64,000 bases of DNA from Gemmatimonadota bacterium (GTDB taxonomy: Bacteria > Gemmatimonadota > Gemmatimonadetes > Longimicrobiales > Gaopeijiaceae): the NCBI GenBank assembly GCA_007121455.1, contig SKKN01000006.1:62001-126000 (forward strand). Direction: 5' to 3'. Positions within the stretch are counted from its first letter, which is position 1. Every line of letters starts with the position of its first letter. Under the pieces are notes generated by a model that saw only the letters and a program-made list of their open reading frames with translations, was not told the origin of the DNA and did not search any database. The position numbers were made by a program, and so were the translations under genes. Positions 37,247-42,240 of the stretch are shown here, in pieces.

Positions 37247-38647
37247 ATGACGGAGTACCGGATCGAAAAGGATTCCCTGGGCGAGGTGCGGGTGCCTTCA
37301 GAGGCGCTTTACGGAGCTCAGACCCAGAGAGCGGTCGAGAACTTCCCGATCAGCGGACAGGGGTTCGGACGTCGATTCATCGAGGCGCTGGGCCTGATCA
37401 AGGGATCGGCGGCGAGGGTGAACGGCGAGCTGGGTCACCTCGACAGCGACGTCTCGAAAGCGATCGCCCGGGCGGCGGATGAGGTTCGGGAAGGAACGTG
37501 GGACGAGGAGTTCGTCGTCGACATCTACCAGACAGGATCCGGCACCTCCACGAACATGAATGCGAACGAGGTGATCGCAACGCGCGCGAACCAGCTCATC
37601 GGAACTCGCGGTGCGCCGATCCATCCGAACGACCACGTGAACTTCGGTCAGTCCTCGAACGACGTGATTCCCACCACGATCCACGTCTCCGGCCGTCTGG
37701 CGGTCGAGCGGGAACTGATCCCTGCTCTGGAGGATCTCCATTCCGCGCTGACGGCGAAAGCGGAGGAGTTCGACTCGGTGCTCAAGTCCGGGCGAACCCA
37801 TCTGATGGATGCCACTCCGGTCCGGCTCGGCCAGGAATTCGGGGGCTATGCCCGACAGGTCGAACGGGGGATCGAGCGGGTTCGGCGGGGAGCGGATGAG
37901 CTCTCCGAGCTCGCCCTCGGGGGCACTGCGGTCGGCACGGGCATCAACACGAACCCTGCATTCCCCGGACTGACGATCGCGCTCATCTCGAAGGAGACGA
38001 AGCTCGAGTTCCGGGAGGCCTTCAATCATTTCGAGACGCAGGCTGCTCAGGATGCGGTGGTCAGCCTTTCCGGCGCACTGAACACCGTGGCCGTCAGCCT
38101 GATGAAGGTGGCGGACGATGTTCGGTGGCTTGCGAGCGGACCCACGTCCGGGCTTCGGGAGATCGGGCTTCCCGCCGTGCAGCCGGGCAGTTCCATCATG
38201 CCCGGGAAGGTGAACCCGGTCCTCTCCGAAGCCCTGATGATGGCTTCTGCCCGAGTGGCCGGGAACCATACGGCGATCACCCTGGGGGGAGGCCGGGGCA
38301 ACTTTGAATTGAATGTCATGCTCCCCCTTCTCGCGCATTCCCTCCATGAGTCGATCCTCGTGCTTTCCAATGCGACCCGGGCATTCACGGACCGGTGCGT
38401 GCGGGGCATCACGGCGAATGAGGAGCGGTGCCGGGAGCTTCTCGAACGCAATCCGAGCATCGCAACGGCACTGAACCTCAAGATCGGGTATGACCGCGCG
38501 TCCGAGGTCGCGAAGGAAGCGGCTCGTAGCGGCCGATCGGTACGAGACGTGCTGCTCGAGGGTGGGCTCCTCCCCGAGGAGGAGGTGGATGAGGCCCTGA
38601 ATGTGATCGGCATGACCGAGCCGGGCTTTCCCGGGAAGGCGGGATGA
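37247..38647 (+). CDS. fumC: Class II fumarate hydratase
   Basis: 466 aa from ATG 37247; the frame runs open upstream but over the SDR gene. Signatures are GEVRVPSEALYGAQTQRAV at the N-terminus, TGSGTSTNMNANEVIATRA, HPNDHVNFGQSSNDVIPT with the active-site His region, and GSSIMPGKVNPVLSEAL with the catalytic Ser loop. Full length for FumC. It interconverts fumarate and malate in the TCA cycle without an iron-sulfur cluster. nfo begins on its stop codon (ATGA), so expression is coupled. Confidence 0.96.
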   Translation: MTEYRIEKDSLGEVRVPSEALYGAQTQRAVENFPISGQGFGRRFIEALGLIKGSAARVNGELGHLDSDVSKAIARAADEVREGTWDEEFVVDIYQTGSGTSTNMNANEVIATRANQLIGTRGAPIHPNDHVNFGQSSNDVIPTTIHVSGRLAVERELIPALEDLHSALTAKAEEFDSVLKSGRTHLMDATPVRLGQEFGGYARQVERGIERVRRGADELSELALGGTAVGTGINTNPAFPGLTIALISKETKLEFREAFNHFETQAAQDAVVSLSGALNTVAVSLMKVADDVRWLASGPTSGLREIGLPAVQPGSSIMPGKVNPVLSEALMMASARVAGNHTAITLGGGRGNFELNVMLPLLAHSLHESILVLSNATRAFTDRCVRGITANEERCRELLERNPSIATALNLKIGYDRASEVAKEAARSGRSVRDVLLEGGLLPEEEVDEALNVIGMTEPGFPGKAG

Positions 38648-39570
38648 GCGGCTCTCCTGTGGTCGAAGGGTCGGGAGCGTCGGGGGAGGCGCGTTCCGGG
38701 TCCGGGTCCCGGGACGAACTGGGAGCACACGTGTCTTCGGCGGGAGGAGTCGGCAATGCGCCCGATCGGGCCAGGGCGATCGATTCGGTGAGTCTGCAGC
38801 TCTTCACGAAGCAGCCGAGCCGGTGGGCAGAGCCCGAGTTGTCGGTGGAAGCGGTCGAAGCCTTCCGGGAGGCGCGTGCGGGGGTAGACATCGCGGTCGC
38901 AGGCTCCCATGACTCGTACCTGATCAACCTGGCTTCGCCGGACCCGAAGCTCTGGCAACGTTCGCTGGACTGCTTCATCGGCGAGCTCGGTCGATCGGTG
39001 GCGCTCGGGCTCGACTTCGTCGTCACGCATCCCGGCAACGCGACGGACGGCAACGAGCGCGAAGGCCTCGTTCGGAACGCGGAGGCACTCGTCCGCGCCC
39101 TGGAGGAGGTGCCGGGGGAGACTCGGGTCCTTCTCGAGCTCACCGCGGGCGCCGGGACGACGGTCGGCGCGACGTTCGAGAACCTGGAGATGATCATCCG
39201 TCGGGTACCCTCCGAGCTTCAGGGCCGGGTCGGAGTGTGCTTCGACACCTGCCACGCCTACTCTGCCGGATACGACCTCGTGGACGACTACGACTCGGTG
39301 TGGATCCGCTTCGACGACGTGCTGGGGCTGGATCGGCTCGGTCTGTTCCATCTGAACGATTCGAAACACCCCTTCGACTCCCGGAAGGACCGGCACGAGC
39401 ACATCGGAGAGGGGACGTTGGGCCCGGAGCCTTTCCGGAGGATCATGACGGACGAGCGATTCCTCGAGATCCCCAAGCTGCTGGAGACCCCGAAAGGCGA
39501 GGACATGGTCACCTTCGACCGGAAGAACCTGGCGCTTCTGCGGTCATTCCGCGCCGGATCCGGCGGGTGA
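38644..39570 (+). CDS. nfo: Deoxyribonuclease IV (endonuclease IV)
   Basis: 308 aa. After about 25 disordered Ser/Gly-rich residues the TIM-barrel begins at ELGAHVSSAGGV. Metal ligands appear in GAHVSSAGG, GSHDSYLINLAS, THPGNATDG, LLELTAGAG, VCFDTCHAYSAGYD, FHLNDSKHPFDSRKDRHEHIGEG, all in the family order. It cuts DNA at abasic sites in base-excision repair. The N-terminal extension is longer than usual, so a later start cannot be excluded, although the ATG overlaps the fumC stop neatly. Confidence 0.92.
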   Translation: MSGSPVVEGSGASGEARSGSGSRDELGAHVSSAGGVGNAPDRARAIDSVSLQLFTKQPSRWAEPELSVEAVEAFREARAGVDIAVAGSHDSYLINLASPDPKLWQRSLDCFIGELGRSVALGLDFVVTHPGNATDGNEREGLVRNAEALVRALEEVPGETRVLLELTAGAGTTVGATFENLEMIIRRVPSELQGRVGVCFDTCHAYSAGYDLVDDYDSVWIRFDDVLGLDRLGLFHLNDSKHPFDSRKDRHEHIGEGTLGPEPFRRIMTDERFLEIPKLLETPKGEDMVTFDRKNLALLRSFRAGSGG

Positions 39571-39604
39571 ACGTCCCGTCGATCAAGCACTTTCCGGGCA
39601 CTAC

Positions 39605-39633
39605 TGGACGCGAGGGGGAGCGGGCCCTATATT
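39605..39633 (+). promoter_or_regulatory. Promoter of the pterin-operon leader
   Basis: TGGACG (39605-39610), exactly 17 bp, then TATATT (39628-39633), which matches five of six -10 positions. A second TATATT lies at 39659-39664 in a repeated context (GGGCCTTATATT against GGGCCCTATATT). Transcription would start near 39640 or 39671. Confidence 0.55.
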
Positions 39634-39639
39634 CCCCTC

Positions 39640-39849
39640 GAGCCTCATCGAAGGGCCTTATATTGAGCCAACACATCAGAAGCCGGGACTGACTCTCGTG
39701 GATGCCGCCCTGCCCCTTACGGGGACTGCGAATTCCGCGGGGAGGTCACCAAAAGTTCACCCCGGGCTTCAATAGAACCCCTTCGGTGCAGGCTGCCGGG
39801 GCCGGCACTCCTTGCGGAGGCCGGTCCCGGTTTTTTTGTGCCGGGACCG
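39640..39849 (+). ncRNA. Candidate structured leader / attenuator RNA of the pterin operon
   Basis: The stretch between the TATATT promoter and the pterin genes contains no gene but folds strongly. A terminator hairpin uses CCGGGGCCGGC (39796-39806) and GCCGGTCCCGG (39820-39830), followed by seven T. The same right arm is also complementary to GCCGGGAC at 39682-39689 upstream and to CCGGGACCG at 39841-39849 downstream (9 perfect pairs). Three mutually exclusive pairings of one segment is the layout of an attenuator. A CCCC-TTAC-GGGG hairpin sits at 39713-39724. I cannot match it to THF, preQ1 or another riboswitch core, and a free-standing RNA of about 170-200 nt is the alternative. Confidence 0.45.
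39796..39837 (+). terminator. Intrinsic terminator inside the leader
   Basis: CCGGGGCCGGC (39796-39806) pairs with GCCGGTCCCGG (39820-39830) over 11 bp with one G:T, loop of 13 nt, followed by TTTTTTT (39831-39837). It is the strongest terminator in the window and stands about 140 bp before the first pterin gene rather than after a gene. Confidence 0.75.
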
Positions 39850-39977
39850 AACGACTCGACAGGGGGTAGCTTGGGCCCGAGGTACGGAACGCATCCGTCC
39901 GGGGAATTTGCGCGGCGTCCAAACGCAGGCCGCCTCCCTGCCCGTATCGGAAACGCAAGCCCTATCGGGGAGTCCGA

Positions 39978-40394
39978 ATGCCGCGCGTGCGGGTTACCCG
40001 CCGACTCCATTTTTCGGCTGCTCACCGGCTCTACCGGTCCGAATGGTCCGACGAGCGGAATCGAGAGGTCTTTGGAGACTGCTCGAATCCACTCTGGCAC
40101 GGCCACAACTACGAGTTGGACGTGACCGTGGAAGGGGAGGTGGACCCTACGACCGGGTTTGTCCTGGACCTTTCCCGCCTGAAGAGGATTGTGGAGGAGA
40201 ATGTGATCCGGGACCTCGATCACAGGAACCTGAACGTCGAGGTGCCCTGGCTCGAAGGGATGAATCCCACCACCGAAAACGTCGTGGTGGCGATCTGGGG
40301 CCAGCTCCGCCCGGCCCTGCCGGAAGGCATCGCTCTCACCCGGCTCGTGCTTTGGGAGACACCGAGAAACTACGTGGAGTATGTCGGGGAATGA
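39978..40394 (+). CDS. 6-pyruvoyl-tetrahydropterin synthase-like protein
   Basis: 138 aa. Zinc-binding His residues lie in HFSAAHRLY and in [10 protein letters not shown]. The catalytic Cys in [13 protein letters not shown] is five residues before the HGH, as in the animal-type synthase that acts on dihydroneopterin triphosphate (CxxxxxHGHNY), whereas QueD proteins have Cxxx[11 protein letters not shown] and [10 protein letters not shown] complete the active site. It would make 6-pyruvoyl-tetrahydropterin for a biopterin-like cofactor. GTP cyclohydrolase I, its supplier, is encoded immediately downstream. A bifunctional QueD/sepiapterin-cleaving activity is an alternative. Confidence 0.85.
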
Positions 40395-40419
40395 ACGCCC
40401 CGGGAATTGGAGGGGAACG

Positions 40420-41067
40420 ATGACGGTAAGGCAGACGGCCCGGATTCTCGAGGAGGAGGATCCGGAGCTCGATGTGACGGAAGGGCCGGATCTCGCACAG
40501 GTCCCGTATCAGGATCTGATCGCCGAGATGATCCGCCGGATCGGAGAAGATCCGGACCGTGAGGGGCTGCGGAAGACCCCCGAACGGGTCGAGAAGGCGA
40601 TGAGGTTCCTCACCCAGGGCTATGGGCTCGATCCGAACGAGGTGGTGGGTGACGCTCTTTACGAGGAGCGTCATCACAACATGGTGATGGTCAAGGACAT
40701 CGAGATGTATTCCCTCTGTGAGCATCACCTCTTGCCGTTCTTCGGAAAGGTCCACGTGGCGTACATCCCGAACGGGAAGATCATGGGGCTGAGCAAGATG
40801 GCCCGCCTTGTCGAGGTCTTTGCCCGCCGGCTTCAGGTCCAGGAACGGTTGACCGAGGAAATCGCGCAGAGCCTGTGGGAGGTCGTGGAGCCACAGGGCG
40901 TGGGTGTCGTGATCGAGGCATACCACCTCTGCATGATGATGCGAGGAGTGGAGAAGCAAAACTCCACGACGATCACCTCGGCGATGCGCGGAAACTTCCT
41001 CGAGGACGCGAGGACCCGGGAGGAGTTCCTCCACCTCGCGCTCACCACCCATCGGCCCGTCTCCTGA
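40420..41067 (+). CDS. folE: GTP cyclohydrolase I
   Basis: 215 aa from ATG 40420 with GGAGGGGAACG upstream; ATG 40381, overlapping the previous gene, is less likely. [38 protein letters not shown] with the zinc Cys and His, and [20 protein letters not shown] with the second zinc Cys define the family. It converts GTP to dihydroneopterin triphosphate, the first step of folate, biopterin and queuosine synthesis. It stands between the pyruvoyl-pterin synthase-like gene and an SDR gene, which favours a biopterin-type route. Confidence 0.96.
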
Positions 41068-41072
41068 GCTCC

Positions 41073-41780
41073 ATGGGACTCGAAGGCAGGTTGGTGCTCG
41101 TGACGGGTGCGAGTCGCGGGATCGGTCGAAGTGTCGCCAGACGCATCGCCTCGGCAGGGGGCCGGGTCGGACTCGTGGCCCGAAATGCCGCGCCGCTCGA
41201 GGACCTCGCGGACGAGTTGGGAGGCGTCGCACTTCCGGCGGACGTCTCGGACCCGGAGCAGGTCGACGACATGGTTTCGAGGTTCCGGTCGGAGATGGGG
41301 GGAGCGCCGCAGCTCGTGGTGCACTCCGCTGGAGTTTTTTCGCTGGGTGCGGTCGCGGAAGAGTCCGTGAAGGCGTTCGACCAGCACCTTGCAGTGAACC
41401 TCCGGGCGGCCTTTCTCGTGATCCGGGCGGTGCTTCCCGAGATGCTTGCGCATGGGGGAGGCACGATCGTCACGGTGGGATCCGTCGCGGGGCGGAAGGC
41501 GTTTCCGGGGAATGGAGCCTACTCCGCATCGAAATTTGGGCTCCGGGGGCTTCACGAGGTGCTGCTCGAGGAGACCCGCGGAACTGCGGTGCGGGTGACC
41601 CTCCTCGAGCCGGCGGCGACGGACACGACGATCTGGGATCCGCTCGGCGTGGAGGGCACTCCCGATCTGCCCGGCCGCTCCGAAATGCTTCGGCCGGAGG
41701 ACGTGGCGGACGCCGTGGTCTTCGCGGCCACCCGTGCCGGGCATGTACGGATCCCATTTCTTCCCATCGAACGGGCCTGA
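41073..41780 (+). CDS. SDR family oxidoreductase, possible sepiapterin-reductase role
   Basis: 235 aa, ATG 5 bp after the folE stop. Classical SDR motifs are intact: VLVTGASRGIGRSVARRI, LVVHSAGVF, Ser in VGSVAGR and YSASK with Tyr and Lys. On sequence alone this is a general NADP-dependent reductase. The position between folE and a QueD-like gene and behind the pyruvoyl-pterin synthase suggests reduction of the pyruvoyl side chain, the job of sepiapterin reductase. That assignment is contextual only. Confidence 0.8.
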   Translation: MGLEGRLVLVTGASRGIGRSVARRIASAGGRVGLVARNAAPLEDLADELGGVALPADVSDPEQVDDMVSRFRSEMGGAPQLVVHSAGVFSLGAVAEESVKAFDQHLAVNLRAAFLVIRAVLPEMLAHGGGTIVTVGSVAGRKAFPGNGAYSASKFGLRGLHEVLLEETRGTAVRVTLLEPAATDTTIWDPLGVEGTPDLPGRSEMLRPEDVADAVVFAATRAGHVRIPFLPIERA

Positions 41781-41829
41781 CACTCAGCTCGGCCGAACGG
41801 ACAGGCCCGCCAAGAGCGAGAGGTTACCT

Positions 41830-42240
41830 GTGAACTACTATACGGTCAGCGTCCAAGCCCACTACGATGCGGCGCACTTCCTCCGGAATTACGGTGGGAA
41901 ATGCGAGCGGTTGCACGGCCACCGGTGGGTGGTGGAGGTAGCGCTTCGGACCGCTGAGCTGGGCGAAGGGGGCATCGCATTCGACTTCGTGGAGCTCAAG
42001 AGGCACCTCATGGAGCTCGTCGAACGCTTCGATCATCGCAACCTGAACGATGTCCCTCCCTTCACCGAGATCGAAACGAGTGCAGAGAACCAGGCGCGCT
42101 ACTTCTTCGAAGAAGTGAAGGAGCGCTTGCCCGCTGAGGTTGCGGAGGGGCTGTTGTACGCGCGGGTGTGGGAGACCCCGACCCAGTGGGCGCAGTACGG
42201 GCCGTCTCCCGCGGTTGCACCGGTCCCGTCCGGGCCTTGA
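41830..42240 (+). CDS. queD: 6-carboxy-tetrahydropterin synthase, QueD-like
   Basis: 136 aa from GTG 41830 (GAGAGG upstream). AHYDAAHFLRNYGGKCERLHGHRWVVEV shows the zinc His residues and the CxxxHGH catalytic motif of QueD. RFDHRNLNDVPPF and RVWETPTQWAQY are the other family blocks. It would turn dihydroneopterin triphosphate into 6-carboxy-tetrahydropterin for queuosine and other 7-deazaguanines. No queC or queE is in the window. This is the second member of the same family within 1.9 kb, and the two differ exactly in the spacing of the catalytic Cys. Confidence 0.85.
   Translation: MNYYTVSVQAHYDAAHFLRNYGGKCERLHGHRWVVEVALRTAELGEGGIAFDFVELKRHLMELVERFDHRNLNDVPPFTEIETSAENQARYFFEEVKERLPAEVAEGLLYARVWETPTQWAQYGPSPAVAPVPSGP

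Follow-up and report, generated by a model that had tools for sequence, protein, structure and literature searches.

The leader that separates nfo from the pterin genes of this Gemmatimonadota bacterium raises a simple question: is it a cis-acting switch for the genes that follow, or does it encode an RNA of another kind? A sequence-only reading of the window (the whole 64,000-nucleotide stretch of DNA analysed here) had placed ahead of the pterin operon a structured RNA equipped with a promoter and a terminator of its own, and this part has been borne out. It had also proposed that the RNA senses a pterin or GTP as ligand, a claim that had to be abandoned, as the RNA is recognized as a 6S homologue that occurs once per genome with or without pterin genes. 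From the sequence comparisons given below, we conclude with high confidence that the leader is the divergent 6S RNA (SsrS) of this bacterium, with its own conserved promoter and an intrinsic terminator. The neighbouring genes and the transcription signals are the following:

38644–39570, + strand: nfo, endonuclease IV (TIGR00587, 250 bits); upstream neighbour in close relatives only.
39605–39633, + strand: promoter of the RNA, TGGACG, 17 nt, TATATT; single promoter-like site in the region, with a conserved −10 box.
39796–39837, + strand: intrinsic terminator, 11-bp stem and seven T; homologues have a GC-rich hairpin at the same site.
39978–40394, + strand: PTPS/QueD-family gene (PF01242, TIGR00039); usual, not obligate, 3′ neighbour.
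40381–41067, + strand: folE, GTP cyclohydrolase I (TIGR00063, 254 bits).

The promoter is formed by the boxes TGGACG (39605–39610) and TATATT (39628–39633) with a 17-nt spacer, and it is the sole promoter-like site found in a scan of 38600–40400, with 0.2 expected in shuffles. Among homologues, the −10 box is exactly TATATT in 20 of 30 and matches in at least five of six positions in 26 of 30 (0.2% and 7%, respectively, when shuffled), the mean best match to the RNA's own −10 being 5.5 out of 6. The terminator stem is made of CCGGGGCCGGC (39796–39806) and GCCGGTCCCGG (39820–39830), followed by seven T (39831–39837), and a GC-rich hairpin is likewise present 3′ of the RNA in homologues, some of which have no clear T run. 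Both signals had been proposed at these positions from the window alone, and both are found there. Transcription would be expected to start near 39640, and the conserved promoter and terminator predict a stand-alone transcript of about 155–200 nt.

The RNA of about 160 nt between these signals (39635–39797), which the sequence-only reading had not recognized as a conserved unit, shows strong conservation of both its sequence and its structure. A DNA search of 58 relatives showed the stretch to be present in nearly all genomes of the same family and in several others of the order, the best-conserved part of the alignments lying upstream of the terminator (query 57–203). An alignment of 29 sequences from relatives gave a covarying fold of 44 pairs, in which 93.5% of cells are paired and 22 pairs have two-sided changes. 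None of 500 shuffles reached the score, and a shift of the partners by a single column lowered the pairing to about 50%. A phylum-wide alignment has the same covarying fold, with 91.4% of cells paired. Covariation in an alignment of homologues had been named beforehand as the check on a structured RNA, and it is seen in the closing stem (two-sided changes at 9 of 11 pairs), in helix P2 and in the apical helices. The resulting rod follows the 6S plan, in which a closing stem, an asymmetric central bubble and a long apical arm succeed each other:

39635–39797, + strand: 6S RNA (SsrS) homologue, span of the covariance-model match; homologous loci match RF00013.
39642–39656, + strand: closing stem, 5′ strand GCCTCATCGAAGGGC; covaries with 39778–39793.
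39661–39669, + strand: helix P2, 5′ strand TATTGAGCC; pairs with 39765–39773 and, with 39670–39672, is the predicted pRNA template.
39670–39683, + strand: central bubble, 5′ side AACACATCAGAAGC; unpaired in the consensus fold, its motif common to the above-threshold Rfam 6S homologue.
39679–39684, + strand: GAAGCC, alternative partner of the P2 3′ strand in a predicted central-bubble-collapse-type helix (folding test).
39684–39764, + strand: apical arm, covarying helices 3–6.
39765–39773, + strand: helix P2, 3′ strand GGCTTCAAT, predicted two-partner switching arm (covariation and folding test).
39778–39793, + strand: closing stem, 3′ strand CCCCTTCGGTGCAGGC (covariation).

The apical arm starts with P3 (CGGG/CCCG) and continues into a hairpin, TGACTCTCG... 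/ ...GGGGAGGTCA, that is capped by a GCCCC-loop-GGGG tip.

6S RNA, a general RNA of bacteria, restrains RNA polymerase; its Rfam family is RF00013, with a curated (gathering) cutoff of 46.4 bits. Two covariance models of our own were compared with it: R1, built from the 29 relatives over 165 positions, and R2, built phylum-wide. R1 finds a full-length match in 193 of 200 Gemmatimonadota genomes and in 88 of 93 genera, nearly always a single one; the window copy is the match G000:C6:101635-101797, at 144.9 bits and in single copy. One of the seven genomes without an R1 match (G067) has an RF00013 match at 42.3 bits. A second R1 match at E ≤ 0.01, possibly a 6S paralogue, is present in G035 and G039, and those of G122 and G063 are at chance level only.

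The assignment to 6S comes from the coincidence of both families of models on the same loci. In a first set of 81 genomes no RF00013 match exceeds the cutoff, and the matches with listed R1 coordinates coincide with R1 loci; in a second set of 30 genomes one match exceeds the cutoff, and all ten with E < 0.05 coincide with R1 loci. The coincidences include G080:C10:562.6 kb, G082:C9:15.66 kb, G127:C2:5134 kb and G117:C29:46.98 kb, and R1 run on the loci detected with RF00013 (L103–L110) gives E values from 7e-15 to 8e-9. The locus above the cutoff, in genome G213, reaches 56.6 bits with RF00013 and has an R1 match at the same place. It carries the exact TTGAGCCAACAC motif of the window, and its sequence includes UUUUUUGAGCCAACACGUCCC, the core of which is identical to that of UAUUGAGCCAACACAUCAG in the window. 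The window copy itself gives no match to RF00013 even at E ≤ 10, so that its 6S membership rests on its homologues; as RF00013 has no match anywhere else in the genome of the window either, this locus fills the 6S slot.

A more distant comparison is provided by E. coli. With default filters R1 did not find the E. coli 6S RNA. With filters off, R2 ranked ssrS (L141:1484-1666) first in a 3.5-kb stretch, matching 1491–1658 over its full length, although weakly (14 bits, E of 0.006 for 3.5 kb, the next best being 0.26). In this alignment the P2 pairs UGAGCC/GGUUCA are in register, and window P2 (UUGAGCC / GGCUUCAA) occupies the place of E. coli CUGAGCC / GGUUCAAG. The P2 5′ strand TATTGAGCC aligns with E. 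coli TGAGCCGAU, which ends at nt 44. The E. coli segment UGAGCCGAU also ends at nt 44, the known pRNA start, and its counterpart in the window ends at C39672.

The rod, in which a closing stem and an apical arm flank the central bubble, and the single copy are features of 6S/SsrS RNAs of the B. subtilis 6S-1 and Aquifex type, and the predicted length of about 155–200 nt would agree with the 160–200 nt or so expected of a stand-alone 6S transcript. The Gemmatimonadota copies differ in their neighbours and, in nearly all members, are too diverged for RF00013. The Gemmatimonadota RNA adds a new, divergent member to a known class of RNA. A literature search returned no paper pairing 6S RNA with Gemmatimonadetes or Gemmatimonas; the 6S survey of Wehner 2014 was outside this search, so an earlier detection is possible. 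As the model recovers 6S RNA in about 97% of Gemmatimonadota genomes, a phylum-wide annotation gap is filled: in Rfam-based annotation these bacteria seem to be devoid of 6S RNA owing to sequence drift only.

The sequence-only reading had drawn attention to the right arm of the terminator, which was thought to pair in three mutually exclusive ways. Both additional complementarities are literally present, but they are not conserved and constitute a feature of one genome. The right arm forms 11 bp with the GAAGCCGGGAC segment (GCCGGGAC) in the window; in 28 homologues the longest stretch of such pairing typically measures 5 bp and in most cases does not exceed what shuffled arms give, only about 4 of the 28 falling below 5% in this comparison. 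For CCGGGACCG (39841–39849) no conserved counterpart is found among homologues. Compensatory changes in all three pairings would have spoken for the proposal; of the three, the terminator is the conserved one. Mutually exclusive pairings do exist in this RNA, but the conserved pair has other partners and centres on the P2 3′ strand: GGCUUC (39765–39770) pairs either with UUGAGCC (39663–39669) in P2 or with GAAGCC (39679–39684) in the bubble. When 14 nt are blocked, as a pRNA on its template would do, the GGCUUC:GAAGCC helix is predicted in 22 of 29 homologues, and shuffling the bubble lowers the expected number of pairs from 4.8 to 0.6. A “central bubble collapse helix” between the P2 3′ strand and the distal 5′ bubble has been described for the 6S RNAs of B. 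subtilis and A. aeolicus (PMC8876501), and the two-way switch predicted here by folding matches this P2/collapse arrangement.

The general 6S cycle runs from polymerase binding through pRNA synthesis to release (PMC8876501). If the Gemmatimonadota RNA works as its family does, it would mimic an open promoter and bind the holoenzyme of RNA polymerase with the housekeeping sigma factor, lowering polymerase activity under nutrient shortage. During recovery, the polymerase would copy the 5′ side of the bubble into a short pRNA. The alignment with E. coli U44 places the putative pRNA start opposite C39672 (5′-GUUGGCUCAAU...), from where synthesis would read back through GAGCC. This would open P2 and free GGCUUC, which could then pair with GAAGCC in the collapse helix and cause the release of the polymerase.

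Known regulators of folate, pterin or queuosine genes, such as the THF, preQ1 and folE-motif RNAs, are situated upstream of such genes, and the position of the leader would fit cis control of queD-folE by a novel riboswitch or attenuator that responds to a pterin, folate or GTP. In 23 of 30 close relatives queD or folE lies directly 3′ of the RNA (L008, L013 and L020 are loci cut off by a contig edge), and among 20 loci of other families 15 have one of them within 1 kb; moreover, a terminator stands between RNA and genes, and no separate operon promoter is seen. However, when folE and the RNA are tracked separately across genomes, the two come apart. They are on separate contigs in G016, G143, G213 and G140; in G004 15.6 kb separate them, and in G127 the distance is large; four f8 genomes keep the RNA and have no FolE match; and second folE copies in G230 and G127 lack the RNA, of which there is one R1 match per genome. 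Unlike the THF, preQ1 and folE-motif RNAs, the Gemmatimonadota RNA also occurs apart from those genes, and it has no Rfam match to these regulators. A scan of the window gave nothing at gathering cutoffs, which agrees with the earlier remark that no known folate or pterin regulator is recognizable here; the weak matches near the terminator at E ≤ 10, e.g., c4-a1b1, are due to chance. Neither is there a conserved arm common to the terminator and the structured core, and the fold is already explained by 6S homology. We therefore think that a pterin riboswitch is very unlikely, the 6S identity explaining the candidate away.

A 6S-resembling fold alone does not fix the protein partner, and the RNA might bind core RNA polymerase without sigma, as does Ms1 of Actinobacteria, which shares the 6S-like rod with a central bubble and was initially taken for a 6S RNA (PMC9130861). 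Yet Ms1 is about 300 nt long and has two extra terminal hairpins (PMC9130861), whereas the RNA studied here has about 155–200 nt and no such hairpins, its 165-position model being flanked directly by promoter and terminator. In addition, RF00013 is the named family that it matches best, and conservation extends to the pRNA-template motif, which leaves an Ms1-like function with a probability that we rate as slighter still. The presence of a GC-rich terminator could also suggest that only the end of the nfo or operon transcript is conserved and the rest is unconstrained spacer. This explanation is refuted by the R1 matches in 193 of 200 genomes and by the covariation: the conserved, covarying part is upstream of the terminator, and the RNA is kept where nfo is absent upstream.

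A 6S RNA being the preferred reading, the proximity of queD-folE still deserves attention. Such strong linkage exceeds the needs of a purely trans-acting RNA and counts against the 6S reading. No promoter-like −10 is present between the terminator and queD (39838–39977) in the window or in the corresponding gaps of 19 relatives, where the mean best −10 match is 3.35 out of 6 vs 3.40 in shuffles and some gaps have only 30–50 nt; read-through probably supplies queD-folE as a consequence. By analogy with ssrS-ygfA of E. coli, the 6S gene is probably the first cistron of the pterin operon. In E. coli, the gene immediately 3′ of ssrS is fau/ygfA, which encodes 5-formyl-THF cyclo-ligase (L141:1484-2290), so that in both cases a 6S RNA precedes a gene of this metabolic area. 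The Gemmatimonadota genes, in contrast, are queD/PTPS and folE, for pterin synthesis from GTP, with a predicted intrinsic terminator in between. The dicistronic ssrS-FAU1 transcript, which has been characterised by experiment, is conserved widely among Proteobacteria (PMC7641849), and ygfA is a frequent neighbour of 6S RNA, although no synteny is common to all bacteria (PMC9130861). We regard it as possible, if rather doubtful, that in many families of the phylum a GTP-to-pterin operon has the 6S RNA gene as its promoter-proximal part, the expression of queD-folE being set by transcription that reads through the 6S terminator. If true, this would represent, together with the proteobacterial ssrS-ygfA, a recurrent coupling of 6S output to folate/GTP metabolism. 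The location of 6S RNA ahead of one-carbon or pterin genes in two distant phyla offers a lead on why 6S RNA and folate metabolism travel together.

Some other loci came up along the way. Five contigs titled Gammaproteobacteria or Rhodospirillaceae (L057, L071, L076, L082 and L092) carry a 6S RNA of the Gemmatimonadota type at 127–130 bits, with nfo and queD-folE as neighbours in L057 and L076; they are probably mislabelled metagenome bins. Two matches of a contig pattern scan (L045 and L078) are chance, and the model rejects both. Finally, the region 3′ of folE in the window (41073–42240) holds a short-chain dehydrogenase (PF00106) and a second PTPS-family gene (QueD, TIGR03367, 90.0 bits), and judging from these gene families the PTPS-folE-SDR-PTPS cluster could yield a tetrahydrobiopterin-like pterin plus queuosine precursors.
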